Shown here in pieces: positions 8,223 to 55,408 of a stretch of 64,000 nt of DNA. The notes under the pieces are model-generated. The model was not told the DNA's origin. It searched no databases and saw only the letters and a program-made list of their open reading frames with translations. This stretch comes from Medicago truncatula. Its lineage: Eukaryota; Streptophyta; Magnoliopsida; Fabales; Fabaceae. The stretch is from assembly GCF_003473485.1 (NCBI RefSeq), contig NC_053044.1, forward strand, positions 24,673,591 through 24,737,590. The letters are read 5' to 3'. A program made the translations under genes and the position numbers. Every line of letters starts with the position of its first letter. The stretch's first letter is position 1.

Positions 8223-9986
8223 ATGCGAACAACAAGAACTTCAATCTCTTCATGTTATCTCCGTCTCAAAAACCATAACAACCTAACCTCTAACCTTCAC
8301 TTCTCCTCTAACGCCGTTAACAGCAACCCAACAAACACAAGAACCCATCTCTTAAACACCATAAGAACCCTCACAAACGTTAACACCGCCGTCACATTCT
8401 TTCACCAAATGCTCACACTCAAACCTCTCCCTAACATCAAAGACTTCAATCTTTTATTCACATTCATAACCAAAACCAAAAACTACACAACAACAATTTC
8501 ACTAATCAAACACGCGCATTCGTTTAACATCAACGCCGATACTTACACGCTCAACATTGTAATTAACTGTCTTTGTCATCTGGGCCATACTAAATTCGCA
8601 TTCTCTGTTTTGAGCCAGATGTTTAAAACAGGGTTAAAGCCGACAGTGGTGACTTTGAACACGATTGTTAATGGGCTTTGTGTTGAAGGTAATGTTGCAC
8701 GAGCGGTTTGTTTAACCCGCGAAATGGAGAATGCGGGTTATGAACCAAATGGTTACACATTTGGTGCGTTGGTTAATGGTTTGTGTAAAATTGGGGATAT
8801 GGTTAGTGCTGTTGGTTGTATTAGGGATATGGTTGAGAGAAACTATGAACCGAATGTTGTTGTTTATAATGCAATTATGGATGGTTTTTGTAAAGGAGGG
8901 TTTGTTTCGGAGGCTTTGAGTTTGTTTGCGGAAATGAATGAAAAAGGTGTTAAGGGTAGTTTGGTTACTTATAATTGTTTGATTCAAGGGGTTTGTAGCA
9001 TTGGTGAATGGAAAAAAGCGTATTTTTTGTTGAATGAGATGATGGAAAAGGGCGTAATGCCTGATGTTCAAACTTTTACGATTTTGGTGGATGGTTTTTG
9101 TAAAGAAGGGTTGATTTTGGAGGCTAAAAGTGTGATTAGTTTTATGGTGCAAATGGGTGTGGAACCTAATGTTGTGACTTATAATTCATTGATTGGTGGT
9201 TATTGTTTGATGAATGAAATAGATGAAGCTATAAAAGTATTTCGTTTGATGGTTTTGAAGAAGTGTTTGCCTAGTGTTGTGACTTATAATTCACTGATTC
9301 ATGGTTGGTGTAAGGTTAAAGATGTTGATAAAGCTATGTGTTTGTTGAATGAAATGGTTAATGAAGGTTTGTATCCTGATGTTGTGACTTGGACAACACT
9401 TGTTAGTGGGTTTTGTGAGGTTGGTAAACCTTTGGCTGCTAAAGAATTGTTCTTTACAATGAAGCAATATGGTATGGTTCCGACTCTTTTGACCTGTGCT
9501 GTTGTTTTGGATGGTTTAATTAAATGTCATTTTCGTTTTGAGGCGATGTTGTTGTTTAGGGCTTTGGAGGAAAGTGATTTAGATCTTGATATTGTGATTT
9601 ATAATGTTATGATTGATGGTTTGTGTAAAGATGGAAAGTTGAATGATGCAAGGAAGGTTCTTGCACGTTTACTGGTTAAAGGGTTAAGATTCGATTCGTA
9701 TACGTTTAATATCATGATTGGAGGTTTATGTAGAAAAGGGTTGTTGGATGATGCTGAAGACTTGCTTATGAAGATGGAAGAAAATGGATGTCAACCTAAT
9801 AAATGTTCTTATAATATCTTTGTCCAAGGATTGCTGCGAAAACGTGATGTTCTAAGGTCGAAAAAATACCTTCAAATAATGAAAAACAAAGGGTTTGCAG
9901 TGGATGCTACTACCACAGAGTTGCTTATAAGCATTTACTCAGATGATAAAGAAAGCGACACATTTCAAGAGTTGATGCAGAACTGA
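8223..9986 (+). CDS. P-class pentatricopeptide repeat protein, Rf-like
   Basis: An intronless 587-residue ORF. Residues 1 to about 40 are rich in Ser, Thr, Asn and Arg with no early acidic residues, consistent with a mitochondrial presequence. From about residue 70 to 570 the protein is roughly 14 tandem 35-residue PPR motifs, with recurrent phrases such as VVTYNSLIGG, PDVVTWTTLVSGFC and YNVMIDGLCKDGKL, and no E, E+ or DYW tail. This places it in the P class, and the phrasing resembles the Restorer-of-fertility-like group that binds organellar RNA in a base-specific way. The RNA target is unknown. The start codon follows a CT-rich leader. The frame is intact and ends TGA. The opposite strand carries a shadow ORF produced by codon bias. 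Confidence 0.93.
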   Translation: MRTTRTSISSCYLRLKNHNNLTSNLHFSSNAVNSNPTNTRTHLLNTIRTLTNVNTAVTFFHQMLTLKPLPNIKDFNLLFTFITKTKNYTTTISLIKHAHSFNINADTYTLNIVINCLCHLGHTKFAFSVLSQMFKTGLKPTVVTLNTIVNGLCVEGNVARAVCLTREMENAGYEPNGYTFGALVNGLCKIGDMVSAVGCIRDMVERNYEPNVVVYNAIMDGFCKGGFVSEALSLFAEMNEKGVKGSLVTYNCLIQGVCSIGEWKKAYFLLNEMMEKGVMPDVQTFTILVDGFCKEGLILEAKSVISFMVQMGVEPNVVTYNSLIGGYCLMNEIDEAIKVFRLMVLKKCLPSVVTYNSLIHGWCKVKDVDKAMCLLNEMVNEGLYPDVVTWTTLVSGFCEVGKPLAAKELFFTMKQYGMVPTLLTCAVVLDGLIKCHFRFEAMLLFRALEESDLDLDIVIYNVMIDGLCKDGKLNDARKVLARLLVKGLRFDSYTFNIMIGGLCRKGLLDDAEDLLMKMEENGCQPNKCSYNIFVQGLLRKRDVLRSKKYLQIMKNKGFAVDATTTELLISIYSDDKESDTFQELMQN

Positions 9987-14144: not shown

Positions 14145-17100
14145 ATGCATGGTATGGAGATTGTCACGGTTCCAAATGATTCAAACTCGAAAGAGAATCT
14201 GACCCTTTATCAAGAGTGGTTCAATTATGCAGATGCAGGTTATTCTATAAACAAAATTTCATTTTTTTTTTTTTACTTTTGTGTAAATTAAAATTTATAG
14301 GATATTGTTTTTCACCATGTTTGTTATGATTATGAAGTTTTTGATATTTAACTTTTACTCTAATCTTTTCTATAAAGGGATATAATTATGCTACATGCTT
14401 GTGAAAAACTGCACACGTTGATGTAGCCTTGAATAAAGCTTTTAATGTATTCATATTCCCCTTTATGTGGTTTCTAATGCAATATTTTATATTTTTTTTT
14501 GCATCATTTTACTCTTTTGTGAAAACAATATGGTGATTGGAAATTTGTGTTTTTTATACAGATGGCGATGGTCGCTTTACCGGGACTGAAGCCACCAAAT
14601 TTTTTGCAATGTCGAATTTGTCTCGACAAGAGCTCAAGCAGGTTTCAATTTTTTTTATTTGGCTTGTGCATTGGAACAAGGTGTCTGTATAAATAGGAAT
14701 AATGTATGTGTTCATTAGGGTGGAAACCAGTCAATTAGTATTTTGAAGTAAAGGCTTGTTTCCTTTGGTAAGGCATCTCAAATTTGAGTTTTTATAATTT
14801 AGGTTTATTGGAAAAAATTAGAGTGCACATCGACTAGAGATGAGGTCTATACTCTATAGTGTTTATACATCGATTTTGTGGGGTTCAGCCAGACCTAAAA
14901 TCTAAGATGATATCAGAAGATTCGTAACCTATTCTAGATATGGTTGCAAGTCTTATCGACACATCTAACACTATCAACGAGTTATTAATATTATGCCACT
15001 CAATGAGGAATGAAATATATTACTCAAAGGCTATGGCATTTTATTGTTTACTACATAGTGACTATTACAATGATGATAGTGGATTACATTTGAATCGTGT
15101 AAAAGTTTTCTTTGATGCCATATTGTTTCCATTAGATGAAATTATATTGATTATTCAAGTTGCTGCTAGTTCCACACAGTCTCTTATTTTTCACTTTTTT
15201 ATCTTCCTTGTAACTAAATTGTTTCTTTGTTTCTCACCTTACCAAACTAAGGTGTGGGCTATTGCAGATTCAAAGCGAGAAGGGTATCTTGGTTTCAAAG
15301 AATTTGTTATTTCTATGCAGGTAATTCTTTTCATTAAAAAAAAAACTTTGCTTTATCAAACTTTAATGCGAATCATTTTTTCGACTTTAACCCATTTGAA
15401 TTGTAGCTTGTTTCTTTGGGACAATCTGGCCACTCAATAACACAGGATCTTCTGACTAGTGATCGTAAGTTCTGTATCTTTAGGTTTGTCCTCTATTGTA
15501 TGGTTGGATAACTCTACTCTCTACATATGTTTTAGTTAATGATTTTGCAACTATGCAGCCACGACACTCTAGATTGAAGTCGTGTCTAGGCGTCTGATGA
15601 CACCAACACATGTGGTTGGTTACATCCAATCACTTGCATTTTCTTAAATTATTATCTCCATTACATGTCGGTATTGATATTGATATCGCGTTTGATGTTT
15701 GTGTCAGTGCTTTATAGTTTTGCAATGCATATTTTTGTTACTTGTAAGTGCCTTTCAGATAAAGCTACCTAATAGAAGATTTACTTCGATTTCAGTTATA
15801 AAAAACGTAAAACCACCAAAAATGGAAGGTTTGGACGCATTAGTTGCAGTAAGTATTTCCATCTCAATGCTAATAGTTTATGTTGATTTAATCAAAGTGC
15901 TTATCCGTACCTAAATGGTTATGTATGTACAGAAGAAAAAGCGCAAACATAAAGATAAAGATAGGAGTGGTAATATATCTCATTTTATTGACTACGGTCA
16001 TTTACACTTTCACATTTATTTTCGTTGGTTTTTCAATTTCTTTCTTCTCTTCTCTTCAAATTCCAAGTTTGCGTAATTTGCAATAATGCAGTTAGTCCGC
16101 TGCCATCACCCTCAGATAAGTGGTTTTCTGCAAAGTCATCAAAAAAGGTACACATTTTGTTATTACTATTACTCTGAAATTTGATATTCTCTGGTTGTGC
16201 TACTTGCTTATTTTTTGCATTCATATTGATTTTCCACTTCAACATTTTGTGCATTATGTCCACAGATATCTGCTTCCTCTGTGACATCAATTATCGATGG
16301 TTTGAAGAGACTTTACATTCAAAAGTTGAAGCCTTTAGAAGTTGCCTATCGATTCAACGATTTCGTATCTCCTTTACTAGTCAGTATATGACTCTTGTTC
16401 TTTTGTGTAACTTTTTGATTAAGCTAACCGCGTTTTAAATATCGGAAAAAACATATTCACTTCTATATTGATTGATTGTAGACAAATAGTGATTTTGATG
16501 CCAAACCTATGGTTATGCTTTTGGGTCAATACTCAACCGGGAAAACAACTTTTATTAAACATATGCTTCAAAGTAGTTATCCAGGCAAGTAGTTTGATCC
16601 ATTCTCGATTTCTACTCGAGTAATATATATTTATGTCATTATTATATCTGTTAAACCGTACATGTTACTGATTTTATTTTCTTGTTTTTCTATTTACTTG
16701 TCATTAGGAGCTCATATTGGACCTGAACCAACAACTGATAGGTTTGTTGTTGTCATGGTATGTACTAAACCATTTACTCTCCATTACTAGTTACTACTGA
16801 TATGGTAGCTTTCTTCAGTTTTGAATTTGTATCTTAAATTGACATATGAGTCTATAGTTCGGTTCACGAAGGAAAACTTAACCGTTACAACAGTTTCGTA
16901 AAACTGAACCGTTCCAAGCTGGTATAAAAGTTCGGTGTACCGGTTTTGTGTTTATGTACCGTATCTACCTTCATAGAAAACTAAACTGTAACTTGGACCA
17001 AACTGATTCTTTGTCAACCGAACCATACCAAATTTTTATTATTAAGAGATATTAGAACTGTTAAGAAAAACAAAAACTGAACTAAATTGAATATTAGGAC

Positions 17101-19904
17101 TGTAAAAAAAACCAACTACCGAACTGCAACTCACCGAAAAGAACCATACTGTGAAAGATAGTTCATGAGCTGAACTGAATTGAACTAGTTCAGTTTGGTT
17201 TGTGAAGTTCCAGTCACAGTTTGGTCCTTTTCGGTTCAGTTCGGTTTTGACTTTTTTAACAGTCCTAGATATATGCTTGAACATCAAGCCTGTAATTGCA
17301 AACTTGGCTTAAGAATTTTCAAATTAATATATAACAAATGGTACATAGTCCATGACTGTTCAAATAAAATGAGGGAACATTGTTGTTGAGTTACAATAAA
17401 TAAAGCAAGCTTCACACTACAGGAACACTTGGTGATATCTTTCGGAATTTTTCACTGAAATACATTGCAGTCTTTGCAGGCATATATGTTAGTTCTGATC
17501 CTCGATATCGTTTAATTATATTTATGAGATATTGGTTGTGTTTTTATATTACTTTATTCTCTTCAAAATCTCTTATAGTTTAAGTTGTAATCATTTTAAA
17601 AAATGAAATGTGAAGTTGGCTTATAAGATTGCTGTGGGCATTTATGATATATGATTTTATGGTCATAGTAGTTTGAGTGCCAAGTATGATATCGTGAAGT
17701 GATTGTTATCTATGCAGTCTGGACCTGATGAGAGAAGTATTCCTGGTAATACTGTTGCTGTCCAAGCAGACATGCCATTTGGTGGTCTTACAAATTTTGG
17801 CTCCGCTTTTTTGTCAAAGTTTGAGTGTTCTACAATGCCTCATCCTGTAAGTTTTCTCTAGAAAAAAATTGGAAAAAAATTATTAGCAGATTTTAGTCGT
17901 TGAGTTTATTAACTATGCAATAACAACATAAAAAAAAGTTTTACACATGACCAATATTATCAACATAATTTGTGTCATAATATATTTTCTAAAATATCTG
18001 CAAATTCAATAAGGAGAAAAGCAACAATCACATAGATCATATGATTTTACCGTGCCAGTATATAGTAATTAAGTTTTTTCATTTTTGTAGCATTTGGAAC
18101 TAACTTTTTCTCATTTGTCCAAAGCTACTAGAGCACATTACATTTGTGGACAGCCCTGGAGTTCTATCAGGAGAAAAGCAACGATTAGAGAGATCATATG
18201 ATTTTACCGGCGTAACTTCTTGGTTTGCTGCTAAGTCTGATTTAATACTCCTCCTATTTGATCCTCACAAACTTGATATCAGCGACGAGTTCAAACGTGT
18301 GATAACATCCCTCAAGGGGCATGATGATAAAATTAGAGTGGTTTTAAACAAGGCAGACCAAGTTGATACTCAACAGGTAAGATAACATTAAACAATTCAT
18401 TTTGTATTTGTTTGCTTAGCAAATATTTTGAAACATAGTCGGAGAATATAATTTTATATATAATTGTGTGCCCTAATGTTTCAGTTAATGAGAATTTACG
18501 GTGCTTTAATGTGGTCACTTGGGAAAGTGCTCAATATTCCAGAAGTCACGCGGGTGTATATAGGGTATGCTACTCATATATGTCATGTGCACACATTCTC
18601 TACCATCAATCTTGAAATGTTATATTTGCCAATGCTTGGATAAACAATTTAATTATGTGCATATGGCATAGCCACTTATATATAAGTCTCTATAAATTTA
18701 GATGTGATTTAAATCTTATGACATTGACTTATATTGGCAGATCCTTCAATGACCAGCCTGTAAACAATGTTGTCAATGGTGTACTTGGCAATGAACTCTT
18801 CGAAAGAGAACAGGAAGACCTTCTTACAGATCTAAAAGATATACCAAAGAAGGCTTGTGATCGTAAAGTAAGGTTTTCATTTGATTAAATTTTTTAAGCA
18901 TAATGCTTTTCTCAACGTAAATACTACACACATGTGCAATTTTTTATATTAGCTAAATTCGTTGATGAGATTCATTTGTGGAGTAAGTAAAGGATGAACC
19001 ACAAAAGCTTGAAAGATAACTGGCATAGGGATGAAATAATAACGATTCGAGAGTACTTTTTAGTATATTTAGTGGGATAACATTAGTAAAAGGATTGACG
19101 TCCTTACCACATTAGTACCATGTTATGCAAATTTTTGTTGTGGTATTGACTTCATAGCTGTTGTGTATCCGATCTCTTGAATTTCAGCTTAAGTAACTAA
19201 TCATGTTTTCTTAAGAAATTAATATGGGAGGGGGGATGATATTATTTATTTAGTGCGAAGGGAGAGACACTTGGCCACATAGTCTCCAAATCGAACCTAA
19301 ATATGTCCTTTTATATTAAAAAGCCAAGCGATCACCGATGTGCTAGGGTCGCTAAGAGTTTGAACTGAACTATGCCTCTTTAGATTGCAAAGCTAAGCAC
19401 TAACCACTATGCTAACATCTGATATATTTTTATTTTATCTATTGAAGTTGCATCTTTTTGTAATTGAGATAACATTTGTACATAATGTAGATCAATGAAT
19501 TTGTAAAACGAGCTCGAGCTGCCAAAATACATGCATATATTATCAGTCATCTAAAAAAGCAAATGCCTGCCATGATGGGGAAAGCTAAAGCTCAACAAAA
19601 ACTCATTGATAACTTGGAGGGGGAATTCGCAAAGGTATATATGAATCCACCAACAACTCTGAATTGGTCACAAATTTACGATAAATAAGGATTGAAAATT
19701 GAAAAAAATGTATAACAGGTACAAAAGGAGTTCCATCTACCAGCAGGAGACTTTCCAAATGTTGAACACTTCAAAGATGTGTTGAGTGGTTATAACATCG
19801 ACAAGTTTGAGAAATTGAAACCGAAATCGATACAAGCCGTGGATGATATGCTTGCTCACGACATTCCTAATCTCTTAAAGACTTTTAGAAATCCATATGG
19901 TTAA
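14145..19904 (+). CDS. EHD: EH-domain-containing dynamin-like ATPase (plant EHD), 16 exons
   Basis: Exons: 14145-14238, 14562-14641, 15252-15320, 15407-15464, 15796-15848, 15933-15969, 16092-16147, 16266-16379, 16482-16584, 16708-16757, 17718-17846, 18125-18376, 18485-18564, 18741-18867, 19491-19634, 19719-19904. They join in phase to 543 residues, close to the roughly 545 of Arabidopsis EHDs. The N-terminal EH domain has a canonical EF loop (DADGDGRFTGTE) and a weaker second one. A Lys-rich linker (KKKRKHKDKDR) leads to the ATPase: P-loop GQYSTGKT (202-209), DSPG (290-293) and NKAD (356-359), then the helical domain ending NLLKTFRNPYG. EHDs tubulate and remodel endosomal and plasma membranes. 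Plant forms carry the EH domain at the N-terminus, as here. An in-frame ATG at 14154 is an alternative start. Intron 9 is GC-AG. Exons 8-16 are duplicated at 45.9-49.9 kb. Confidence 0.93.
16855..17270. repeat. CGGTT/AACCG-rich intronic repeat in EHD intron 10
   Basis: A block dense in GTTCGGTT, AACCG and GAACTGAA words with inverted-repeat character. A homologous block occupies the equivalent intron of the chimeric copy (about 46765-47110), so it was present before the duplication. A short related piece (CTCGGTTCAGGTAGG) lies at about 57570. Probably an old foldback/MITE family. Confidence 0.5.
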
Positions 19905-29747: not shown

Positions 29748-30110
29748 TTAATGCTATATGTACGATTTGCATATGTTATATTATCATATTAGAAACTTGG
29801 TAAGTTGGGCATTACAACTGCAATAAGAAAGCCAGAAAGTATTGTCATGAGTAAGATAAGATGATGAAGAAGAAAACTGGGCAGCAATTGGCCGGAGGTG
29901 CAAGTCCACACACATCTGTCTACCAATTGGCAGCCTTACCACTAGTTAAGTTGGTGCCGGTGACGTTGTTATTTAATAATTTTGCCTGCACCATTCACAA
30001 ATGAAACAGGAAGAAATAGTAAGCAAATAATGTGTATAAATATGTGTCATCAACCTGCATGCTCATTCACAACTCATCAATACTATCAAAACTTAAGTAA
30101 ATATATCATT
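29748..30110 (+). promoter_or_regulatory. Lectin 1 promoter and leader
   Basis: TATAAATA at 30035-30042, 68 bp before the ATG at 30111. The upstream 250-300 bp (GCTATATGTACGATTTG, GGGCATTACAACTGCAAT, TGTCATGAGTAAGAT, GGTGACGTTG) recurs upstream of lectins 2 and 3. The TGACGT core may be a bZIP site. Confidence 0.7.
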
Positions 30111-30890
30111 ATGAGTATCATCATGTCTTCAAAATTACCATTTTATTTTCTTTCTGTTTCAGTAATAGTTGCTCTCTTGCTGGCAACTACTGAACCAGTG
30201 ACCTCTCAGAAAACAACTTCCTTCGACTTTCAAAAATTCACCTCAGGTCAATCTGATTTAATCATGCAAGGTAGTACTGAGATTTTTTCAAATGGGATAA
30301 TGGCACTCACCAACCCTTCTAAGCCTAATATTGGACGGGTGTTGTATTCAAATCCAGTGCCTATTTGGGATAGTACTACTGGACATGTTGCTAGCTTCGT
30401 CGCTTCCTTCTCCTTCACGGTTGAGGACATTCAAGATTATAATAAAGCCGATGGAGTCATCTTCTTTCTTGCACCACAAGATACCGTCATTCCTCCCAAC
30501 TCTGGAGGTTCAAATCTCGGAGTAGTTGATGCGCAAAATGCTTTCAATCAATTTGTTGGTGTAGAGTTTGACTCTTATGCCAATCAGTATGATCCCAAGT
30601 ATCCACATATTGGAATTGATGTTAACTCTGTAATTTCCTCCAGGACAACACCATGGAACAGGGTGAGTGGGTCATTAGTCAAAGTAAGTATAATTTATGA
30701 CTCTCTATCTAACACATTGAGTGTTGCTGCCACTGACAACAATGGTCAAATTTCAACTGTTGCTCATGCTGTTGATTTGAAAGCTGTTCTCCCACAGAAC
30801 GTTAGGGTTGGTTTATCTGCAACAGTTACATCTGGCGGCCGCCAATTGCAAAACATTCATTCGTGGTCTTTCACTTCTACCTTGGCATGA
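30111..30890 (+). CDS. Legume lectin 1, secreted
   Basis: 259 residues, intronless as legume lectin genes usually are. A signal peptide (hydrophobic SVSVIVALLLATTEP) is probably cleaved before QKTTSFDF. The mature part is one legume-lectin beta-sandwich. The metal-site segment VGVEFDSYANQYDPKYPHIG has the conserved E, D, aromatic, N, D and H. The sugar-binding Asp is in ADGVIFFLAP and the loop-B glycines in NSGGSNLG. The first strand has QKFTSG, so the NFT glycosylation sequon of copies 2 and 3 is absent. An in-frame ATG at 29982 is rejected because the TATA box lies downstream of it. AATAAA is at 31259-31264. Expected to bind sugar in a vacuole, protein body or the apoplast; specificity cannot be read. 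Confidence 0.95.
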   Translation: MSIIMSSKLPFYFLSVSVIVALLLATTEPVTSQKTTSFDFQKFTSGQSDLIMQGSTEIFSNGIMALTNPSKPNIGRVLYSNPVPIWDSTTGHVASFVASFSFTVEDIQDYNKADGVIFFLAPQDTVIPPNSGGSNLGVVDAQNAFNQFVGVEFDSYANQYDPKYPHIGIDVNSVISSRTTPWNRVSGSLVKVSIIYDSLSNTLSVAATDNNGQISTVAHAVDLKAVLPQNVRVGLSATVTSGGRQLQNIHSWSFTSTLA

Positions 30891-36123: not shown

Positions 36124-36458
36124 GTAATGCTATATGTACGATTTGAATATTTTATATTATTATTATATAATAAACTTGATCAGTTGGGCATTACAATTGC
36201 AATTTTCAATAAGAAAGGCCAGGAAGCATTGTCATGAGTAAGATGATGAAGAAGAAAAATCTGGTAATTGGGCAGCAATACCACTAATTAAGTTGGTGCT
36301 GGTGACGTTGCTAATTAAAAATTTAGGTTGCACCACTACTTCAGTATATTCTCCAAAGGAAAAGGAAGAAATAGTAAGCAAATCATTTGTATAAATATGT
36401 GTCATCAACATGCATGCTCATTCACAACTCATCAATACAATCAAAACTTCATACTATT
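36124..36458 (+). promoter_or_regulatory. Lectin 2 promoter and leader
   Basis: TATAAATA at 36390-36397, 62 bp before the ATG. Shares the conserved upstream block (GCTATATGTACGATTTG, GGTGACGTTG) with the other two lectins. Confidence 0.7.
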
Positions 36459-37244
36459 ATGAGTATCATCATGTCTTCAAAATTACCATCTTCTTTTCTT
36501 TCTGTTTCAGTAATAGTTGCTCTCTTGCTGGCAACTACTGAACTAGTGACCTCTCAGAAAACAACTTCCTTCGACTTTCAAAATTTCACTTCTGGTCAAT
36601 CTGATTTAATCATGCAAGGTAGTACCGCGATTTTACCAAATGGGGTAATGGCCCTAACCAACCTTTCTAAACAAAGTACTGGACGGGTGTTGTATTCAAA
36701 TCCAGTGACTATTTGGGATAGTACTACTGGACATGTCGCTAGCTTCGTTACTTCCTTTACCTTCACGGTTGAGGATTATCAAGGTTATAAACAAGCCGAT
36801 GGACTCATCTTCTTTCTTGCACCACAAGACACCGTAATTCCTCACAACTCTGTGGGTTCAAAACTCGGAGTAGTTGATGGGAAAAATGCTTTCAATCAAT
36901 TTGTTGGTGTCGAGTTTGATAGTCATGCCAATAAGTTAGTGTTTGATCCCAATTATGCACATATTGGAATTGATGTTAACTCAGTAATATCATCCAGTAC
37001 AACACCATGGAACAGGGTGAGTGGGTCATTGGTGAAAGTAAGTATAATCTATGACTCTCCCTCTAACACATTGAGTGTTGTTGCCACTAACAGCAATGGT
37101 CAAATTTCTACTCTTGCTGATGTTGTTGATTTGAAAGCTGTTCTCCCACCGAACGTTAGGGTTGGTTTTTCTGGAACAGTTACAGCTGTCGGCCGCCAAT
37201 TGCAACAGATTCATTCATGGTCTTTCACTTCAACCTTGGCATGA
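36459..37244 (+). CDS. Legume lectin 2, secreted, altered binding loops
   Basis: 261 residues with the same signal peptide and fold as lectin 1. Distinctive points: the metal/sugar loop reads FDSHANKLVFDPNYAHIG, so the conserved aromatic is His and there is a short insertion (about three residues) before FDP. Loop B reads NSVGSKLG instead of NSGGSNLG, losing one glycine. NFT (in QNFTSG) and NLS (in TNLSKQ) are potential N-glycosylation sites. Metal ligands E, D, N, D and H appear retained. The loop changes suggest altered or reduced sugar binding compared with its neighbours (inference). The upstream ATG at 36387 is rejected because it lies 3 bp before the TATA box. AATAAA at 37523-37528. Confidence 0.94.
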   Translation: MSIIMSSKLPSSFLSVSVIVALLLATTELVTSQKTTSFDFQNFTSGQSDLIMQGSTAILPNGVMALTNLSKQSTGRVLYSNPVTIWDSTTGHVASFVTSFTFTVEDYQGYKQADGLIFFLAPQDTVIPHNSVGSKLGVVDGKNAFNQFVGVEFDSHANKLVFDPNYAHIGIDVNSVISSSTTPWNRVSGSLVKVSIIYDSPSNTLSVVATNSNGQISTLADVVDLKAVLPPNVRVGFSGTVTAVGRQLQQIHSWSFTSTLA

Positions 37245-39957: not shown

Positions 39958-40271
39958 TGATTTGCATATATATGTTATATTATTATATTAGAAACTTTTG
40001 ATCAGTTGGGCATTACAATTGCCATTTTCAATAAGAAAGGCCAGAAAGGATTGTCATGAGTAAGATGACGAAGAAGAAAACTCTGTCAATTGGGTAGCCA
40101 TACCACTAATTAAGTTGGTGCTGGTGACGTTGCTAATTAATAATTTAGGTTGCACCACTACTTCAGTATATTCTCCAAACGAAAAGGAAGAAATAGTGAG
40201 CAAATAATGTGTATAAATATATGTCATCAACATGCATGCTCATTCACATACTATCAAAACTACATAATATT
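39958..40271 (+). promoter_or_regulatory. Lectin 3 promoter and leader
   Basis: TATAAATA at 40212-40219, 52 bp before the ATG. Nearly identical to the lectin 2 upstream block from GATCAGTTGGGCATTACAAT onward, including GGTGACGTTGCTAATTAA. Confidence 0.7.
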
Positions 40272-41051
40272 ATGAGTATCATCATGTCTTCAAAATTACC
40301 ATCTTCTTTTCTTTCTGTTTCAATAATAGTTGCTCTCATGCTGGCAACTACTGAACCAGTGACCTCTCAGAAAACAACTTCCTTCGACTTTCAAAACTTC
40401 ACTTCTGGTCAATCTGATTTAATCATGCAAGGTAGTACCGCGATTTTACCAAATGGGGTAATGGCACTCACCAACCCAACTAACCCTAATACTGGACGGG
40501 TGTTGTATTCAAATTCGGTGCCTATTTGGGATCGTACTACCGGACATGTTGCTAGCTTCATCGCTTCCTTCTCCTTCGTCGTTGAGGATTATCAAGGTTA
40601 TATGCCAGCCGATGGAATCATCTTCTTTCTTGCATCACATGACACCGTCATTCCTCCCAACTCTGGAGGTAAATATCTCGGAGTAGTTGATGGGCAAAAT
40701 GCTTTCAATCAATTTGTTGGTGTAGAGTTTGACTCTTATGCCAATCAGTATGATCCCAAGTATCCACATATTGGAATTGATGTTAACTCTTTAATTTCCC
40801 GCAGGACAACAACATGGAATAAGGTAAGTGGGTCATTAGTCAAAGTAAATATAATCTATGACCCTCTCTCTAAACAATTGATGGTTGCTTCCACTAACAA
40901 CAATGGTCCAATTTCTACTATTGCTCATGCTGTTGATTTGAAAGCTGTTCTCCCAGAAAATGTTAAGGTTGGTTTATCTGCATCAATTACATCTAACGGC
41001 CGCCAAACGCAACACATTCATTCATGGTCTTTCACTTCTACCTTGGCATGA
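40272..41051 (+). CDS. Legume lectin 3, secreted
   Basis: 259 residues. Signal peptide, then QKTTSFDFQNFTSG with an NFT sequon. The binding segment VGVEFDSYANQYDPKYPHIG is the same as in lectin 1, with the conserved aromatic Tyr present. The carbohydrate Asp is in ADGIIFFLAS, and loop B reads NSGGKYLG. It is a mosaic: the upstream flank and N-terminus (ILPNGVMALTN) match lectin 2, while the binding region matches lectin 1. That could reflect gene conversion or simply retention in two of three copies. AATAAA at 41217-41222. Confidence 0.94.
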   Translation: MSIIMSSKLPSSFLSVSIIVALMLATTEPVTSQKTTSFDFQNFTSGQSDLIMQGSTAILPNGVMALTNPTNPNTGRVLYSNSVPIWDRTTGHVASFIASFSFVVEDYQGYMPADGIIFFLASHDTVIPPNSGGKYLGVVDGQNAFNQFVGVEFDSYANQYDPKYPHIGIDVNSLISRRTTTWNKVSGSLVKVNIIYDPLSKQLMVASTNNNGPISTIAHAVDLKAVLPENVKVGLSASITSNGRQTQHIHSWSFTSTLA

Positions 41052-44575: not shown

Positions 44576-45189
44576 CATATATACAAGTTAAAAAAAATTA
44601 AAATTTCGGGCCTAAAGCAAGAGAGTTGCCTAATGGTTGAGACCTTGCACTCCAATAACAAATATGTGAAAACAAATTCAAGTTAGTGATATACAAACTA
44701 TGCATGACAATGACTTATGTAATCTATTCATTAGCATGGCCGTCTCTGGCAAGTGCAACATGTTTGAACCATTGCTCATGTATTTAACTACAAGTTAAAA
44801 GTCATGCATGTTTGAACCATTGCTCATGTATTATTTAACTACAACTTAATTATTTATCGCTATAAACAATGTTGGATTTTTTTTTCATTTCTTTTTATAT
44901 GAAAATTATCATGTTTGTAACCGGATCTCTGAATTATTGGGAACGGCCCTGAACATTAGAGGTAGTCTTAAAGGTGAGCGGGAGAGACGACAACCCAGAA
45001 CACCAACTATCAATCTTCTCTAAAATAAATTATCAATTTTTTTTATTAAGTAGCTTATTTGATAGAAATTCACTTCTTAAATTAAAAACAAGTGAATATA
45101 GAGTTTGAACACAATCTATATGACAACCTTCTTACCAACTATATGTGATAATTATGAAAACAATAATTAAATGACATAAGATCATATTA

Positions 45190-45478
45190 CCTCCGTCTCT
45201 AATTATAGGAGTATTTTATAAAAATTACGGAGATTAAGAAAGTTGATTGTAGTATTAAATTTGTATATAATTATTATTGTTTTTACAATTTTATCCTTAA
45301 GAGAGAGAGTTAATTTATGTTTTTAACATAATATTTATTGTTGATTGAAAAAAGATGCAAAATAAATAAATGTATGTTGGTAAAAAAAATAATTAATGTA
45401 CTTGAAAATACTAAAGAATTATTATAAAAAGGGATAATTTTTTTTCTTTCAAAAAGGACTTGTAATTAAGGACGTTCG
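45190..45478. mobile_element. Stowaway-like MITE just upstream of the chimeric gene
   Basis: Left end CCTCCGTCTCTAATTATAGG, right end the diverged complement (GTAATTAAGGACGTTCG), TA on both sides. It ends about 30 bp before the block duplicated from GrpE. Confidence 0.55.
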
Positions 45479-45499: not shown

Positions 45500-45776
45500 C
45501 ACGACCCCGTCTAGTTTTCTTTCTTTCTTTCCAAGCAAATTTTCCATCATTTATTTTCCCCTCACTTTCTCTCCTCGTCGTTTCCATAAACCCTTTCATT
45601 TTCCTTCCAATTTCCTCTTAATTTCATCTTCAGTCATGTCCATCTACCGTGTACTTTCTCGATCTTCCAGAACCTTCACACTTCTCTCTTCTTCGCATTC
45701 TTTGCTGAAGCCACAACCCTTCTCCACCACTTTCTTCCATCAATTCAGTTCCTTTCCTCATCAATCACCAAATGAG
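45500..45776 (+). promoter_or_regulatory. Duplicated GrpE proximal promoter, leader and exon 1
   Basis: This block aligns by eye with about 51090-51393: TTTCTTTCTTTCCAAGCAAA, TTCCATCATTTATTTTCCC, CATAAACCCTTTC and TTTTCCTTCCAATTTC all recur in order. The chimera therefore carries its own copy of the GrpE core promoter and 5'UTR, with small deletions in the leader. Confidence 0.8.
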
Positions 45777-48700
45777 GTATCTTTCTTATAAAACTGAATT
45801 AATAAAAATGTAATTTTTCTGTGATTTTGTATTGTAGTTTTTTTTTTCTTTTTCTCTTTAACTTTTCAAAGCTTGTCAAATGCATTCATATAGATTTTTA
45901 AGTTCCAACATTCAGAAATTATCGATGGTTTGAAGAGACTTTACATTCAGAAATTGATGCCATTAGAAGTGACTTATCGATTCAACGATTTCGTTTCTCC
46001 TTTATTGGTGAGTACATTGTTAATCTCTGTCGTTTTCAATAATTAGTTTTTAGACTAATATTTACTCATTCGTCTGGATTTGAACTCAGACCTCCAACTC
46101 GTTATCCCTTAGCTCAAACTAGTTGAGCTATCAAAATCCAACCCCATGTTTTCGCTGTGTTTAAAATATCAACTAACATATTAACTATTGATTTTTGCAG
46201 ACAGATAGTGACTTTGATGCCAAACCTATGGTTCTGCTTTTGGGTCAATACTCAACTGGGAAAACAACTTTTATTAAACATATGCTTCAAAATAGTTATC
46301 CAGGCATGTGGTTTGATCCATTCTCGATTATTTATATTATTAATTTTTGGTCAAGTAGCCTAGTGGTTGGATTCGCACATTTAAGTGTGTAGAAGTGGGG
46401 AATCTAGGGTTCAGACCCTGTCCCATGCATATTATTGTCCTTGCGGCTATCAACTGAGTTGTACTAACAGGACATCTATTTTTGATTTCTGCTCGAGTAG
46501 TATATGTTTTTGTGGTTATCATATATGTTCAACAATATATGTTACTGATGTCATTTTTTGGTTTTTACTATTTGTTCATTAGGAGCTCATATTGGACCTG
46601 AACCAACAACTGATAAGTTTGTTGTTGTCATGGTATGTGCCAAAGCATTTACTCTTCATTACCCATCACTACTGATATGGTCTTTTATAGGGTAAAAAAA
46701 CGGTAGTTTTCTCACTTTTAAATATCCATATTAAATTTGCTTCTGTGCCATGACATGATGAGTTCATGGTTCGGTTAAGAAAGGAAGATCGAACTGAATT
46801 GTTAGAACAGTTTGGTAAAATTGAACCGAACTATTATAATGGTTCGGTGCACCAGTTTTGTATTTCCAAACTCAAACTACCTTCATAGAAGACCAAACTG
46901 CAACTTCTGATACCGAATTGTACTGAATTGTTAATATTAATGGATATTAGGATTGCAAAAAAACATAAAAACCGAACTGAATAAAAAACTGAACTGCACC
47001 GAAAAGAACCAAATTGTGACGGATAGTTCAGACTGAATTGAATTGGTTCAGTTTGTAAACTTCCTGTCACAGTTTGGATCTTTTTGGCGTGGTTTGGTGT
47101 AGGAGTTCCTAATATGACTGAACACCAAGCCTGTAATTGCAAACTTGGCTTAAGCATTTTCAAATTAAAATGCAAACAACAGTACATATTACCTCGCATG
47201 TTCAGATAAAATGAAGAACATTGTTGTTGACTTGCAATAAATAGTGTGAGCTTAACACTACAGGAAAACGTAGTGATATCTTTTTGAATTGCTCACTAAA
47301 ATACATTGCAGCCTTTGTAGGCAGGCTTATATGTAGTTCTGATCCAGGATATAATATAGTTATGTTTATGAGATGTTGGTTGTGATATTCATTTACATCA
47401 TTCATTTGGAAATCTCTTATAGTTTAAGAAATTGTAATCATTTAAGAAAATGAAATTTCATGTCAGCTTATAAGATTGTTGTAGGCATTTTGTGATATGT
47501 GGTTTTATGGTCACAGTAACTTGAGTGCAAAGTTTGATATGTTGCAGTGATTATTATCTATGCAGTCTGGACCTGATGAGAGAACTATTCCTGGCAATAC
47601 CGTTGCTGTACAGGCAGATATGCCATTCGGTGGTCTAACATCTTTTGGCACTGCTTTTTTGTCCAAATTCGAGTGTTCTACAATGCCTCATCCTGTAAGT
47701 TTCTCTAGAAAAAATTGGAAAAAAGATATCAATTGATTTTTGTTGTTGAGTTTAATAACAAGGCAATAAAGAAGTTTTACACGTTTGTTCAATCATATTT
47801 CACCAGTGTCGTGTCATAATATTATTTTGTAAAGTATCTCCAAATTCTATAAGGAGAAAAGCAACAATCACATTGATCATATGATTTTATCGTGTTAGTA
47901 TATAGTTATTTAATTCTTTTTGTTTTGTAGCATTTGGAACTCACTTTTTTTTCTCATTTGTCCGAAGCTACTAGAGCACATTACATTTGTGGACAGCCCT
48001 GGAGTTCTATCAGGAGAAAAGCAACGATTAGAGAGATCATATGATTTTACCGGCGTAACATCTTGGTTTGCTGCTAAGTCTGATATAATACTCCTCCTAT
48101 TTGATCCTCACAAGCTTGATATCAGCGACGAGTTCAAACGTGTGATAACATCCCTAAAGGGGCATGATGATAAAATTAGAGTGGTTTTGAACAAGGCAGA
48201 CCAAGTTGATACTCAACAAGTAAGATAACATTAAGCAATTAATCTTCTATTTGTTGGCCTAGCAATATTTTTGAAACATAGTTAGGAATTAGGATGAATC
48301 TAATTTATATAAAATTATGTGCCCTAATGTTGCAGTTAATGAGAATTTATGGTGCTTTAATGTGGTCACTTGGGAAAGTGTTCAATATTCCAGAAATCAT
48401 GCGGGTGTATATAGGGTATGTCACTTCATATATGTCATGTGCACACATTCTCTACCATAAATCTTGAAATGTTATCTTTGACCAATGGCATAGCTGCTAA
48501 TCATATAAGTGTCTATGTATAAGATATTTCTATAATTAAATATAAAATAAAGTCACTATTTTCGTATAAGCTTAAGTTGTTTTCGTAAACTATCTTTTAG
48601 AGCTTTTGGAAATAAGATGGTAGCAATTTATGGACAGGTCATACGCAAACAGTCTCATAAGTGCTTATGCCACTATTTATGCGCATATAAATCAATCCGA

Positions 48701-49945
48701 ACAGGCCCAAGATTTTCTTAATTATTATTGACTTTTCTCAGCTACTTTGTGCACATTCATATAAATTTATATGTGATCCAAATCTTGTGACATTGACTTA
48801 TATTGGCAGATCCTTCAATGACCAGCCTGTAAACAACATTGGTGTACTCGGAAATGAACTCTTTGAAAGAGAACAGGAAGACCTTCTTACAGATCTAAAA
48901 GATATACCAAAGAAGGCTTGTGATCGTAAAGTAAGTTTTTCATTTGATTAAAATTTTTAATCATAATAATTTGCTCAACGTAAATACTACATACATGTGC
49001 ATTTTTTTTAGCTAAATTTTCTTAAGAGATCATTTGTGGAATCAGTTTTAAAGTTGAGAATGAACCACAGAAGATTGAAAGATAATTGGCATGTGGATGA
49101 AATAATAATGATTTCAGAATACTTTTTTAGTTTATGTGGTGGGAAAACATTGATAAAAGGATAGATGTCCTTACCGCATTTAGTACCATGTTATGCAAAT
49201 TTTCGTAGTGTTATTGATTTCATAGCTGTTGTGTATCCAATCTCTAGAATTTCAGCTTAAAGTTAAGTAACTACTCATGTTTTGTTATGTAAAAAAAACT
49301 AATTATGTTTTGTTTTATCTATCTGTTTTCTTAAGAAATTAATATGGGAGGGGGAATGATATTTTATTCACTGTGAAGGGGTAGACAACCAATGTGCTAG
49401 CATCCATCAAAGTTTGAACTGAACTCTGCCTCTTTAGATTACATGCTAAGCAGTTACCACTATGCTAACATTTGATATTTTTATTTTATCTACTGAAGTT
49501 ACATTTCTTTGTAATTAAGATAACACTTGTACATGTAGATCAATGAATTTGTAAAACGAGCTCGAGCTGCCAAAATACATGCATATATTATCAGTCATCT
49601 GAAAAAGGAAATGCCTATCGTGATAGGGAAAGCTAAAGCTCAACAAAAACTCATTGATAACCTGGAGGTGGAATTTGCAAAGGTATAAATTCATCAACAA
49701 CTCTCTAATTTCTCACGTATTGTTATGATATTGATAAAGAATGAAAATTGAAACACGTGTAACAGGTACAAAGGGAGTTCCATCTCCCTGCCGGAGACTT
49801 TCCAAATGTTGATCATTTCAAAGAGGTGTTGAGTGTTTATAACATCGACAAGTTTGAGAAATTGAAACCGAAAATGATACAAGATGTGGATGACATGCTT
49901 GCTCATGACATACCTAATCTCTTAAAGACTTTTAGAAATTCATAA
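45636..49945 (+). CDS. Chimeric GrpE-presequence::EHD ATPase gene, 10 exons
   Basis: Exons: 45636-45776, 45894-46007, 46201-46303, 46583-46632, 47566-47694, 47968-48219, 48336-48415, 48810-48930, 49539-49682, 49766-49945. They join in phase to 437 residues with no stop. Exon 1 (47 codons, MSIYRVLSRSSRTFTLL...) is a copy of mitochondrial GrpE exon 1 at 51262: Arg/Ser-rich, no acid until Glu47, a textbook presequence. Exons 2-10 match EHD exons 8-16: P-loop GQYSTGKT (100-107), DSPG (188-191), NKAD (254-257), and the C-terminus NLLKTFRNS. The EF-hand/EH part is absent. Exon 2 uses acceptor ATATAG (45888-45893), adding IFKFQHSE from former intron. Exon 8 has a 6-bp in-frame deletion. Expected to be a mitochondrial EHD-like membrane ATPase (inference). 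A short form from the internal ATG at 45957 is possible. Confidence 0.8.
46329..46484 (+). mobile_element. SINE-like insertion in chimera intron 3
   Basis: About 155 bp absent from the equivalent EHD intron, which reads straight from CTCGATTTCTACTCGAG. It includes an A-box-like TAGCCTAGTGGTTGG and a B-box-like GGGTTCAGACCC. Target duplication short and unclear (GATT). Confidence 0.6.
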
Positions 49946-51044: not shown

Positions 51045-51261
51045 TCGTTTCTAATTTTTTCCAACCACAAACACTTGCACACCGACTCTTAACCCGACCC
51101 GATACAGTTTTCTCTTTCTTTCTTTCCAAGCAAATTTTCCATCATTTATTTTCCCTTCACTTTCTCTCCGTTCATAACATTTTCCTCTATTTCATAAACC
51201 CTTTCCCTCTCCAATCCCAATTCCAACCCTAATTTTCCTTCCAATTTCTTCTTCTTCAGCC
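50043..51261. other. Spacer and GrpE promoter
   Basis: Homology to the EHD 3' flank ends at about 50040. 50190-50290 has a tRNA-like GGATTCAAACC box, probably a SINE fragment. A 28-A run lies at 51014-51041, about 220 bp before the GrpE start codon. From about 51090 the CT-rich GrpE promoter/leader is the block copied into the chimera. Confidence 0.55.
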
Positions 51262-54200
51262 ATGTCCGTTTATAGGGTACTTTCTCGAGCTTCCAGAACC
51301 TTCACGCTTCTCTCTGCTTCGCATAAGCCACAACCTCTTTCCACCAATTTCTTCCATCAATTCAGTACCTTTCCTCATCAATTGCCCAATAAGGTATCTC
51401 CCTCGTAATTCTGAATAAAAAAAATTAATTTTTCGTAATTTTGTGCTGTAGGGTTTTATTAGGGTTTTAGGGTTTAGTGAAATAACCTAAAACCCTAAAT
51501 TTTCCTTTTCTATTTTGTCAAATTCTGGCTATGAATTATTGAATTAAGTTTAAATTTTTTGCAGCCTAACTTATAATTTTTGTTTTTTGATGTTTTGGGT
51601 ATGAATTGTTGAATTAAGTCTAAAAGTGTTGTACCATAAATTCCCTTTATCTATTTTTTTGATGTTTTGGCTATGAATTATTGAACTAAGTTTAAATTTA
51701 TTGTTGATGTGGCACAAGTAGTAGATATTAGGTTTACTTAACTATTTGGTTGGCGTAGTTCGATCCTGGACGATGAGTATAAAAAACATACGCTGTGAGA
51801 TGTAAGCCTCGTTTTTTTTGCTGGTAGATAGCCGCAATGACAATAACCACTTGAAAACTCACACACAGACACACACACAAATAGGGGATTCCGGGTCACG
51901 GCGTCCAACCTAGGAATTTCGGCATTTGCCAATTGAGCTAGGACTTGTGAGATGTCAACCTCTTAAATGGATCCCAATAACATGAGGGACTCTGCTGTTG
52001 TCCACAGGATACCTTGATTTACCAAAAAAAAAAAAGAAGTATAAATTTATTGTTGCTTTTTAATCACTTTATTCCTAGATTGTGTATTGCCCCTCGATTA
52101 TTTGTCTGAGTAATTTTGGTTTTAGTTATGCATTGTGAAATTCTCATTTAAGTACTATGTGTGATTTCTAATGTTTCAGCTTATTCCGATTCAAGCCAAT
52201 TTGTTGTATTCTCCAATAAGTTCATCCTTGACTCCAAGATTTGGATTTTCTTCCTCGGCCTCACCTGAATCTTCAAGTGATGACCCTGCAAAAACAAGCG
52301 AAAAAGCCAAGGTAGTTGATCAGAATGAAGAAGATAAACGTGAAGGTCAAAGCAGTGAATCTGGTTAGTGTCTATTCAGAATCTTGTTTTCGATGTCAAT
52401 CTGACAAAAGACAACAGAAAGTGTGGAGTTTTTAAACTGAAATGTGTTTATTTTTTTATTCAGATTCCGATGTAGAGATTGAATGTGATCTATCCAGAGA
52501 TGAATTAATAAAGCTTGTTACTGAGAAGGAAGCACTTTTGAAGTTGAAGCACAAAGAAGTGGAGAAAATGCAAGATAAAGTTTTGCGCACCTACGCGGAG
52601 ATGGAGAATGTCATGGACAGGACTAATCGCAATGCGGAGAGTTCAAAAAAATTTGCTATACAGGTCTATATTTTGACTTTTTATTTGTTTTAAATCGCGG
52701 GGTATAAATCTTGCTCGTTTTCGACTCTTTGCTCAGTGTTTCTAATGTGAATGTAGAGTTTTGCCAAGAGTTTACTTGATGTTGCTGACAATTTGGGAAG
52801 AGCTTCTTCAGTTGTAAAGGACAGTTTTTCAAAAATTGAATCACCTAAAGAATCTGATCAAGCCGCACCACTCCTGAAAACACTTCTGGAAGGTGTTGAA
52901 ATGACTGAGAAACAACTTGCAGAGGTAGACTGTTCTACTTTGTGCTATAGATCTTTAGTTGTTAGGTTCAAAACTAATCTATGTCCATTCTTTTCAGAGC
53001 CATTTGTGTGATCAATTTTATTTTTGTTTCGTGTTCACCTTCCATTACATTTTTCCACATTTATATGGTTTTCTAGTTTAACGATAGAAAAATAAGTGGA
53101 TTCTGAAGGTTTGATTGTGTTTTTCTTTTCGTCTTTAGAAGTTAAGAAGAGAATAAAAGAAAACTAGGAAATTGCAAGTTGCGTTTGATTGTCTCATGCA
53201 TCCATGAACATAGCAATATGCTTTGATAATTTATTGATGTGATCATTCTATTTAAGAGAAAGTGTTTTGTTAGGAACCTTTCTTTTGGTATATGGAAAGA
53301 ATTCCCAAAACTGGGCAGAAATGAATAAACTGCAGAATAATTCTAGCTAGAATAAAGGTTGATCAACAAAATTGAGAAAAGAAGAATTATTTGAATATCT
53401 TTTTCTTACTACCAATATATTGGTATGATAGGATTGCAAGAGAAGATACGAAAGGTTTACAATGAAGATGATAACCTTGCACTCAAGGCTACCCCAAATG
53501 AGCACCGTCCTTTCACACTTTCATTCTATTCTCTAGTCACGAAACATATTTTTCAAATACTATCTTTCTCCTCTAGCCTTGAGGGCTATTTAAAAAAGAC
53601 TTCTAAGAATAACCAAAATAACAATTCTTTTCAACCACCTAGCATTAACTTCTTAGCTCCAATCCTAAAAAACAACCCTTTATTCTTAATCCTAACATTA
53701 CACTCATCCTCTCAACAACCTTGTCCTCATGGTTGTAATAGAGAAAGACTGATCAGGAGATAGAATCCGATGGAAAAAAGGTCGATGAACCGTATCTCCC
53801 TATAGGGTTTTTGCGAGTGGAAGTTATGCTTCAATAAATCTAGGGGCTTTTAAGCAAAACTTAGGGGGCTGTAGAGCAATTTCTTTTCCTGCTGCTGAAA
53901 CCCCACTTAGTGGGATATGGCTTGGTTGTTGTTGTTTTCTGCAGCTGAATCAATATTCCTAGTTGTTACAGATACAGTTGTTGATTTACTGTGGTACATC
54001 AATTTCTCCATGCGACCCCCTTGCATTAAACAATAAATTTGTATCTTTCCCTGTTCCGGTTTCTTACTAAGTGTCTGTCACCTTGGCATTACTTTCTGGT
54101 TCTTGAATGCCAAACCTTGAGATAATGTCAGCAATCTTGTTGATTGCAGATTGCAAATTGTCTAGCTTGCTTGAATGTTCATCCAGCTTGCCCTTGATTT

Positions 54201-55408
54201 TGCTGGCAGAAAGCTCCAATGTTGCCACCCATCATGTTTCCTATTAATCATCCTACAGATTTTGGGAATAGAATCATAATGTCAGTAGATTGATTGATAC
54301 TTCCCAAATATCTTTCGACAAATACAATACATGAAAACCTAAGATAAGCTCGTATATCTAATTACAAACCTTTTTTTTTTGGTGGGCCGGGGTTCAAACC
54401 CCAGACCTTGCATATTTTATGCATTGTCCATACCAACTGAGCTAAGCTCACGAGGACATCTAATTACAAACCATTACGAGTAGACCACAAATATGCAAGT
54501 TATTAAAATTACCTGTAGGAATGTAGATTGAAAAATATAGAATCAATTGAATTGACTGCATTGTTAAGCAAAAAAAAATTGTAAATAACAACAATCTAGT
54601 AAATTGATATCCATGCTTAGGAGAGTAGACTGGTTGCATTGCATTGCTTTTTTCTTAAGTAATGTGTTTCAATGGATAATGCCAGTGTTCAATCCCATTA
54701 TTCACGATTAACATCTGCTGCTTACAGGTACTTAAAAAGCACGGTGTTGAAAAATATGATCCTACAAATGAACCATTTGATCCAAACAGGCATAATGCCA
54801 TCTTCCAAATACCCGATGCTTCCAAGCCTCCAGGCACTGTTGGAGTTGTTCTCAAGGTACGTTGCATGATATTTTGTTCTTTGTACTGTCATTCATTTTT
54901 TCTTTTCTGATTTTAAAATTTGCTTTGACCTTCAAAACTATGTTTCTATATGGTCAATCCCTTTCAATACAAATTACAAAACAACATACCTTTAGTTCCT
55001 AAAGTACAAAACTACATGCTTTTAGTCCCTCTTTGCAGGAACTGAAAATTGGGCACCTAATAAGAAAAAATATAAATATTTTTTTTTTTTTGGTTGGTAG
55101 ACGAAATGGCAAAGCCATTATAAACTCACACAAGTGGAGGTGCCGGGTTTCGAACCCCGGTCAATCACACTTTTGGTCTTATTTTATGGTTAATTTATGA
55201 ACATAAAAAAGTGCTACTATTTGTCATTTCATTCCATTCATGATATTTCTCCATCTCATACCATCAATCTGAACACGACGTGTGTAAATAAAAAGGAATA
55301 CTTTGGTTATATTTGCAGGCAGGATATATGCTCTATGATCGTGTACTTCGTCCAGCAGAAGTTGGGGTTACACATGAAGTGGAGGAAGATAACAAAACAG
55401 ATGAATGA
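51262..55408 (+). CDS. MGE1: Mitochondrial GrpE nucleotide-exchange factor, 6 exons
   Basis: Exons: 51262-51393, 52180-52363, 52464-52663, 52757-52924, 54728-54856, 55319-55408. They join in phase to 300 residues. The N-terminus (MSVYRVLSRASRTFTLLS) is Arg/Ser-rich without acids, a mitochondrial presequence. An acidic low-complexity stretch precedes a long helix (LIKLVTEKEALLKLKHKEVE...) for GrpE dimerisation. The C-terminal beta-domain has the family signature: EPFDPNRHNAIFQIPD, GTVGVVLKAGYMLYDRVLRP. GrpE releases ADP from matrix Hsp70 during import and folding. Intron 4 is 1.8 kb and contains a SINE. The promoter and first exon were duplicated to 45.5-45.8 kb. Confidence 0.93.
51811..51945 (-). 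mobile_element. tRNA-derived SINE in GrpE intron 1
   Basis: On the minus strand: A-box-like TAGCTCAATTGGCAAATGCC, B-box-like GACCCGGAATCCC, and a short A tail (T-run at 51812-51819). Flanking 17-bp direct repeats (51794-51810 and 51946-51962) differ at two positions. Confidence 0.75.
54371..54457 (-). mobile_element. Very short tRNA-like SINE in GrpE intron 4
   Basis: On the minus strand: GAGCTTAGCTCAGTTGGTAT (A box), GGTCTGGGGTTTGAACCCC (B box), CCACC and an A10 tail. Perfect 15-bp target duplications ATCTAATTACAAACC at 54356-54370 and 54458-54472. The body is only 87 bp. Same family as 60801-60882. Confidence 0.9.
55080..55170 (-). mobile_element. SINE fragment in GrpE intron 5
   Basis: On the minus strand: GGGGTTCGAAACCCGG (B box), then GTGAGTTTATAATGGC and a terminal A-run (T-run at 55080-55091). 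The A-box end seems missing. Confidence 0.55.

Follow-up and report, generated by a model that had tools for sequence, protein, structure and literature searches.

Does Medicago truncatula carry an EHD-type ATPase that has exchanged its EH domain for part of a mitochondrial presequence? The question is raised by a window of 64,000 nucleotides (positions 24673591–24737590 of contig NC_053044.1, here C3; genome 430 Mb), in which three gene models were rebuilt on the + strand. Two of these are intact genes, one coding for an EHD ATPase and one for a protein of the GrpE/Mge1 type. Between them, and in the same direction, lies a third gene with a GrpE-like front and an EHD-like body, referred to below as the fusion gene. 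Its most likely product, as predicted from the gene models, would be an EH-free, organelle-addressed EHD-type ATPase with an altered membrane contact.

Structure of the Fusion Gene

The interval 45636–49945 almost certainly holds a fusion gene. The spliced model consists of 10 exons (1314 nt) coding for 437 amino acids and contains a single, terminal stop. A first-pass annotation, made from the letters of the window alone, had proposed ten exons joining in frame to 437 codons, and the spliced model bears this out. The intron borders of all three models are GT-AG, except for one GC-AG intron that the EHD and fusion genes have in common. The GC-AG intron (donor 46304 in the fusion gene and 16585 in EHD) is also kept in a second EHD gene, located on contig C5. 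The EHD gene was modelled whole on C3 and from exon 8 onward on C5; two further loci, on C4 and C2, are represented only by tblastn pieces.

Exons 2–10 of the fusion gene are 93.8% identical to EHD exons 8–16 over 1149 aligned bp, the introns are 80.3% identical over 2279 bp, and 356 of 382 residues of the protein are identical to those of the neighboring EHD. Judged from these alignments, the similarity in both exons and introns is not a chance likeness. Exons 2–10 had been equated with EHD exons 8–16; this holds for the bulk of the sequence, but the first 24 nt of exon 2 do not come from an EHD exon. Where a single coding indel of 6 bp had been noted, two of that length were found, in exons 8 and 10, in addition to one of 9 bp in exon 1 relative to GrpE. 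Introns 2, 3, and 7 exceed their EHD counterparts by 91–218 bp. Intron 2 (193 bp, compared with 102 bp in EHD) contains a multicopy repeat fragment at 46034–46130. In intron 5, 45 bp at 47845–47889 repeat part of exon 6 (48005–48049) at 87%; this copy is probably older than the duplication discussed below, because the parent EHD gene has a similar exon-6-like copy in an intron, at 18005–18052.

At the front of the gene, the match to GrpE runs through the leader and exon 1 into intron 1 (77.5% over 45515–45837). Within the leader, 45502–45574 is 90.7% identical to 51095–51169, and 45598–45619 is 95.5% identical to 51232–51253. Exon 1 is indeed a copy of GrpE exon 1, as had been claimed, but it probably encodes only the front of the presequence, since the GrpE exon comprises 44 residues and the Pfam GrpE domain starts at residue 126. 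A search with GrpE exon 1 matched two places, the GrpE gene and the fusion gene, and missed the diverged GrpE exon 1 on C5. The multicopy element next to the leader is presumably a miniature inverted-repeat transposable element (MITE). All 40 of its scored matches in the genome (itself included), out of 1476 candidates, are copies with a lowest identity of 87%, which sets a lower bound on their number. The features are collected in Table 1.

Table 1. Coordinates of the fusion gene, its flanking element, and its two parent genes in the window
Feature	Position	Strand	Description	Basis
GrpE-type 5' leader	45502–45635	+	134 bp ahead of the fusion gene, no ATG inside	matches GrpE flank
Exon 1	45636–45776	+	GrpE-type N-terminal presequence part, 47 aa	GrpE alignment, gene model
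Model intron 1	45777–45893	+	GrpE intron 1 (as far as about 45837) and former EHD intron 7 (after about 45881), with the fusion point in between	
Exon 2, first 24 nt	45894–45917	+	former EHD intron 7 and deletion scar; exonic only if the new AG 45892–45893 is the acceptor	
Exon 2, remainder	45918–46007	+	EHD exon 8 homologue (EHD_N helix), 88.9% identity	
Exon 3	46201–46303	+	EHD exon 9, P-loop; GC donor in common with EHD	gene model
Exon 4	46583–46632	+	EHD exon 10	gene model
Exon 5	47566–47694	+	EHD exon 11	gene model
Exon 6	47968–48219	+	EHD exon 12, DSPG and NKAD	gene model
Exon 7	48336–48415	+	EHD exon 13	gene model
Exon 8	48810–48930	+	EHD exon 14, 6 bp shorter	gene model, indel count
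Exon 9	49539–49682	+	EHD exon 15, helical-domain tip PIVIGK versus PAMMGK	gene model, alignment
Exon 10	49766–49945	+	EHD exon 16 and stop, 6 bp shorter	gene model, indel count
MITE-like multicopy element	45188–45474	.	directly upstream of the GrpE-type leader	genome matches
Parent EHD gene	14145–19904	+	16 exons, 543 aa, EH domain N-terminal	gene model, Pfam
Parent GrpE/Mge1-type gene	51262–55408	+	6 exons, 300 aa, GrpE domain	gene model, Pfam

Domains of the Predicted Protein

Domains were called at the Pfam cut-offs. The fusion protein contains, in order and all above these cut-offs, EHD_N (residues 59–91), Dynamin_N (96–256), and DUF5600 (329–430). The P-loop GQYSTGKT, DSPG, and NKAD motifs are present in the spliced fusion, as the first-pass annotation had stated, and are invariant among the fusion, EHD, and the C5 EHD. 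The EH domain had been described as removed, and the searches agree: the fusion protein has no match to PF12763 at E values up to 0.001, while the parent EHD has one, and a search of the window for the sequence coding for the EH part matched only the parent EHD gene (14145–16147). The predicted product is an EHD-type ATPase without an EH domain and is not an EHD in the strict sense. At a limit of E = 0.001, its solved relatives comprise six distinct sequences of EHD4 and EHD2 (E values of 5e-138 to 8e-141), covering residues 56–435 at most. The fold of the protein is clear, because its parent is 93% identical and has solved relatives.

The tip of the helical domain is altered. At residues 357–359, AMM has become IVI, and these three adjacent replacements account for 4 of the 19 nonsynonymous changes on the fusion branch. 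They are situated at the position of the membrane-inserting tip of EHD2, and the residue aligned with Phe-322 of EHD2 is an isoleucine. The hydrophobicity of the tip is kept, but the MM pair that is common to the four EHD loci (C3, C5, C4, and C2) is lost.

Coding Constraint

The ratio of nonsynonymous to synonymous divergence (Ka/Ks, or omega) between the fusion gene and EHD is 0.17 over 382 codons (bootstrap 0.10–0.28). This comparison with the EHD gene at 14.1 kb had been suggested as a check on constraint, and neither the pairwise value nor the omega of 0.29 that a codon model gives for the fusion branch is near 1. Among six windows along the gene, one reaches an omega of 0.78 (codons 256–319; 2 synonymous and 6 nonsynonymous differences), and this window holds the tip loop. 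With the C5 EHD as an outgroup, 18 synonymous and 19 nonsynonymous changes were assigned to the fusion branch and 19 and 8 to the EHD branch, with 9 unassigned. By these counts, the fusion branch lies below the neutral expectation (binomial p = 0.0013), and its difference from the EHD branch is not significant (p = 0.12). In the codon model, an omega of 1 is rejected for the fusion branch (p = 0.024), and the estimates of omega for this branch are about 0.29–0.34. None of 2000 neutral simulations produced 18 or fewer amino acid changes.

Indels were counted pairwise between the fusion gene and EHD and are not polarised. The introns contain 47 indels in 2279 bp, 33 of which are not multiples of three, whereas the exons contain only two in 1149 bp, both of 6 bp. 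If half of the intronic rate is assigned to the fusion branch, about 8.3 frame-breaking indels are expected in the exons and none is seen (p about 0.0002); with a quarter of the rate, the probability of finding none is 0.016. The probability of finding no stop codon under neutrality is 0.06. Because omega is below 1 and the exon frames are kept beside indel-rich introns, the reading frame of the EHD part appears to have been in use over most of the period after the fusion. Constraint since the fusion, as proposed in the first-pass annotation, is therefore supported, and it is very likely that coding constraint acted on the gene for most of its history. Exon 1, which differs from GrpE by 8 synonymous and 9 nonsynonymous differences split over two branches, is too short for a constraint test.

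The Junction and Its Splice Acceptor

The sequence at 45881–45912 matches EHD intron 7 (16216–16246) with a score of 37. A chance likeness was rejected, as none of 1066 control pieces reached this score (best control, 33). GrpE intron 1 was also considered as the source of 45838–45916 and was rejected, as 67 of 167 controls scored as high. A shuffle test of the junction filler agrees with both results: the GrpE score was reached by 114 of 300 shuffles and the EHD score by 2 of 300. The first global alignment had placed the fusion point inside EHD exon 8, a position that was replaced by the match to intron 7.

EHD 16247–16288 (42 bp) comprises the native acceptor, at 16265, and the greater part of the ISASSVTS codons; the fusion gene has 4 bases in its place. 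All four EHD loci have SSVTS or SAVTS at this point. The acceptor in the first-pass model is an AG where EHD has TG and is situated inside the former intron. When it is used, 24 new bases (IFKFQHSE) replace the 24 that were lost. In the parent gene models, GrpE intron 1 and EHD intron 7 have the same phase, 0, and the fusion would have been in frame at birth with inherited splice sites. A small deletion may later have taken the inherited acceptor together with the first 8 EHD codons of exon 8, and splicing would then have shifted to an in-frame AG close by.

Origin and Age of the Fusion

Positions 45502–45837 are copied from GrpE and span its leader, its first exon, and the beginning of its first intron. 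From about 45881 onward, the sequence corresponds to EHD: first to intron 7, then to exons 8–16 and the introns between them, and last to a small part of the 3' flank. The order of EHD, fusion, and GrpE in one direction is as expected from a tandem duplication that reached from EHD intron 7 to GrpE intron 1. A single event of this kind would have placed the third gene between its parents, from which it is now separated by 25.6 kb (EHD) and 1.1 kb (GrpE).

A second pair of EHD and GrpE genes is present on C5, in like orientation and about 14 kb apart. No fusion was found in the 30 kb of C5 sequence that was read, which consists of three pieces, and the adjacency of EHD and GrpE therefore probably predates the fusion. 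Likewise, the fusion is probably younger than the split of the C3 and C5 EHD paralogues, although loss of a fusion from C5 is possible. The synonymous divergence (Ks) is 0.199 between the fusion gene and EHD, 0.752 between EHD and the C5 EHD, and 0.711 between the fusion gene and the C5 EHD, so that the fusion is about one-quarter as old as the EHD paralogues.

Genome-wide, a protein search in which all 62 candidates were scored gave 49 matches. These include the fusion gene and EHD loci on C3, C5, C4, and C2, each of which also matches in the EH domain. An isolated fragment at C2:44334797–44334949, which resembles EHD residues 139–189 (51%) and contains two stops, is probably a remnant. The left spacer contains three tandem Lectin_legB open reading frames (29964–30890, 36378–37244, and 40200–41051; protein identity 73–82%), none of which is matched in the three pieces of C5. 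Repeat fragments are present in the right spacer, and comparison with the C5 spacer gave two weak matches only. Upstream of EHD, an open reading frame of 613 codons (8145–9986) has 11 PPR_2 stretches.

The N Terminus and the Proposed Function

The 47 residues encoded by exon 1 include 3 Arg, 1 Lys, 1 acidic residue, and 16 Ser/Thr. The hydrophobic moment (muH) of this segment is 0.57, a value reached by 1.4% of 500 shuffles; the corresponding figures for GrpE exon 1 are 0.55 and 2.6%. The GrpE donor was taken as an organelle protein because of its family (Pfam) and by comparison with Arabidopsis, for which an excerpt of one report describes Mge2 as mitochondrial and Mge1 as dual-targeted and able to enter plastids (PMC9695410). 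A mitochondrial address for the fusion product is plausible, given its GrpE-derived, Arg-containing, and amphipathic N terminus, and provided that an in-frame transcript is made, delivery to mitochondria appears likely.

The predicted protein would be an EHD-type dynamin-like ATPase that has the front of a mitochondrial presequence where EHD has its EH domain. After import into mitochondria, it could form dimers, attach to membrane by its helical-domain tip, and remodel that membrane without the partners or the control of an EH domain. The whole course of events, from the duplication to a mitochondrial EH-free ATPase, is the best explanation of the locus, and we put it forward tentatively. The bolder version, in which a young EHD-type ATPase acts inside mitochondria, free of EH control, with its tip re-tuned and its address changed by one duplication, may be correct but is on balance rather unlikely.

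Alternative Readings of the Locus

Several observations weigh against a mitochondrial ATPase produced from this gene, and the most serious concern splicing. The junction between exons 1 and 2 is the weakest point of the gene model. There are 10 AGs between 45790 and 46008. Four of these keep the frame (45893, 45902, 45935, and 45950, with acceptor scores of 1.4, 2.6, 4.8, and -0.4), and the other six lead to an early stop (9.6, 5.8, -0.1, -1.7, -2.2, and -2.3). The scores come from a crude, small matrix built on 29 true acceptors (leave-one-out range -2.3 to 12.1) and compared with 436 intronic decoy AGs. The acceptor of the model ranks at the 14th percentile of the true acceptors and above 57% of the decoys, whereas the native EHD acceptor, which itself belongs to the training set, scores 11.5. 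The two top-scoring AGs, at 45837 and 45871, result in a stop after 54–56 codons, although use of the former would give an intron of 61 nt. With so small a matrix, the scan is ambiguous; an in-frame fusion transcript today is somewhat favored.

Other points on the same side are that constraint on the fusion branch is weaker than on the other EHD branches (omega of 0.30 versus 0.07, p = 0.001) and that only 134 bp remain of the GrpE leader, bordered on the 5' side by a repeat element. The presequence part lacks GrpE exon 2, and the amphipathicity of exon 1 is modest evidence, as exon 1 of the C5 GrpE gene, with a muH of 0.51 reached by 6.2% of shuffles, is not distinct from its shuffles. Finally, homology between the spacers on either side of the fusion gene is limited to about 100 bp at each end, which leaves the demonstration of a single tandem duplication incomplete.

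The main rival is a recently lost gene, which functioned for a long time and was then broken by the deletion of its native acceptor, so that the reading of 437 codons depends on a conveniently placed AG. The loss of that acceptor with the first 24 exon nt, the early stop that follows from 6 of the 10 nearby AGs, and the relaxed omega all fit such a history. The constraint results are compatible with a loss of function within roughly the final quarter of the branch: if constraint was EHD-like at first and absent afterward, the neutral part could amount to at most about 28% of the branch, and the probability that no frameshift or stop arose in that part is about 0.04. Set against this are exons 2–10 and introns 2–9, which are free of stops, frameshifts, and splice-site losses, and the new AG, which is in phase, as are 4 of the 10 AGs. 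A dead gene is accordingly a minority reading, if one of real weight.

Another reading accepts a functional EH-less EHD and places it elsewhere, either in the cytosol, where it would modulate the parent EHD, through a start at Met-69 or an ineffective short leader, or in plastids or both organelles. The in-frame ATG of Met-69 (45957–45959) is specific to the fusion, EHD and the C5 EHD having AAG, and a start there would give a leaderless protein of 369 residues with a complete G domain. The GrpE leader, moreover, is kept only in its front part. However, a start at Met-69 would truncate the EHD_N helix, no ATG precedes the first ATG in the 134-bp leader, and the frame of exon 1 has been kept relative to GrpE. 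We consider such a product improbable.

A duplicate that was neutral from birth would account for constraint weaker than in the paralogues and for the damaged junction and shortened upstream region. It is hard to reconcile with a fusion-branch omega below 1 by both the counts and the codon model, with the absence of the roughly 8 frame-breaking indels expected, and with the outcome of the neutral simulations, and is very improbable. An assembly artefact or misjoin of parent copies was rejected as next to impossible: misassembly is common for tandem paralogues, but the fusion introns are only 80% identical to those of EHD (20% divergence), three of them are longer than their counterparts, and exon 1 has a Ks of 0.31 to GrpE.

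Comparison with Known Systems

The first-pass annotation had called the EH-less, mitochondria-addressed ATPase a new type of protein. This is too strong, since the domain composition is that of EHD with one domain lost, an EH-less relative is known in sarcalumenin, and genes are known to have evolved by capturing a presequence exon. Sarcalumenin lacks an EH domain and has a lumenal address; it belongs to an animal calcium-store system (endoplasmic or sarcoplasmic reticulum), does not derive from a plant EHD, and has no mitochondrial presequence. It resembles the fusion product in being an EHD relative without an EH domain. A portion of the published account sets it, as an EHD relative, apart from the EH-domain clade (PMC7016017).

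With the EHD ATPases (EHD1–4, RME-1, and AtEHD1/AtEHD2), the fusion product has EHD_N, the dynamin-type G domain, and DUF5600 in common. It differs in the lack of the EH domain, in a GrpE-type presequence part as the N terminus, and in a tip of IVI instead of AMM. An excerpt of one report describes plant EHDs as plasma membrane proteins whose EH domains are N-terminal, and regards the influence of mammalian EHD1 on mitochondrial fission as probably indirect, via VPS35 (PMC13282721). A link between an EHD and a mitochondrion-related organelle is also found in Entamoeba histolytica, where EHD1 is located at mitosome-endosome contacts; its role is at an inter-organelle contact site, and the title and the start of the abstract mention no presequence fusion (PMC9040739).

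The plant Mge1/Mge2 proteins are related to the fusion through the leader and exon 1 of the adjacent GrpE gene. The fusion has no GrpE domain, and the common part is exon 1 only (44 residues in GrpE and 47 in the fusion). Capture of a presequence by exon shuffling is an established route, for example in organelle-derived genes that borrowed a leader exon. The fusion gene is alike in that a leader exon and part of an intron were set, with matched phase, upstream of an unrelated coding region. It differs in that the recipient is a membrane-trafficking ATPase without an organelle history and that only part of the leader was acquired.

In the full texts of open-licence PMC papers, no report was found of this fusion, of Medicago in connection with EHD and GrpE or with an EH domain, or of an EHD with a mitochondrial targeting sequence or presequence. 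Provided that the protein is produced and does enter the organelle, it would represent a young natural example of a trafficking ATPase re-addressed to an organelle in one step, with the parents surviving next to it and the unfused pair on C5 available for comparison. It would then provide a direct test of how an EHD motor works without its EH domain on a membrane foreign to its evolution. The parts and the route, a tandem-duplication chimera with a captured leader exon, are of known kinds, whereas their combination would be new.

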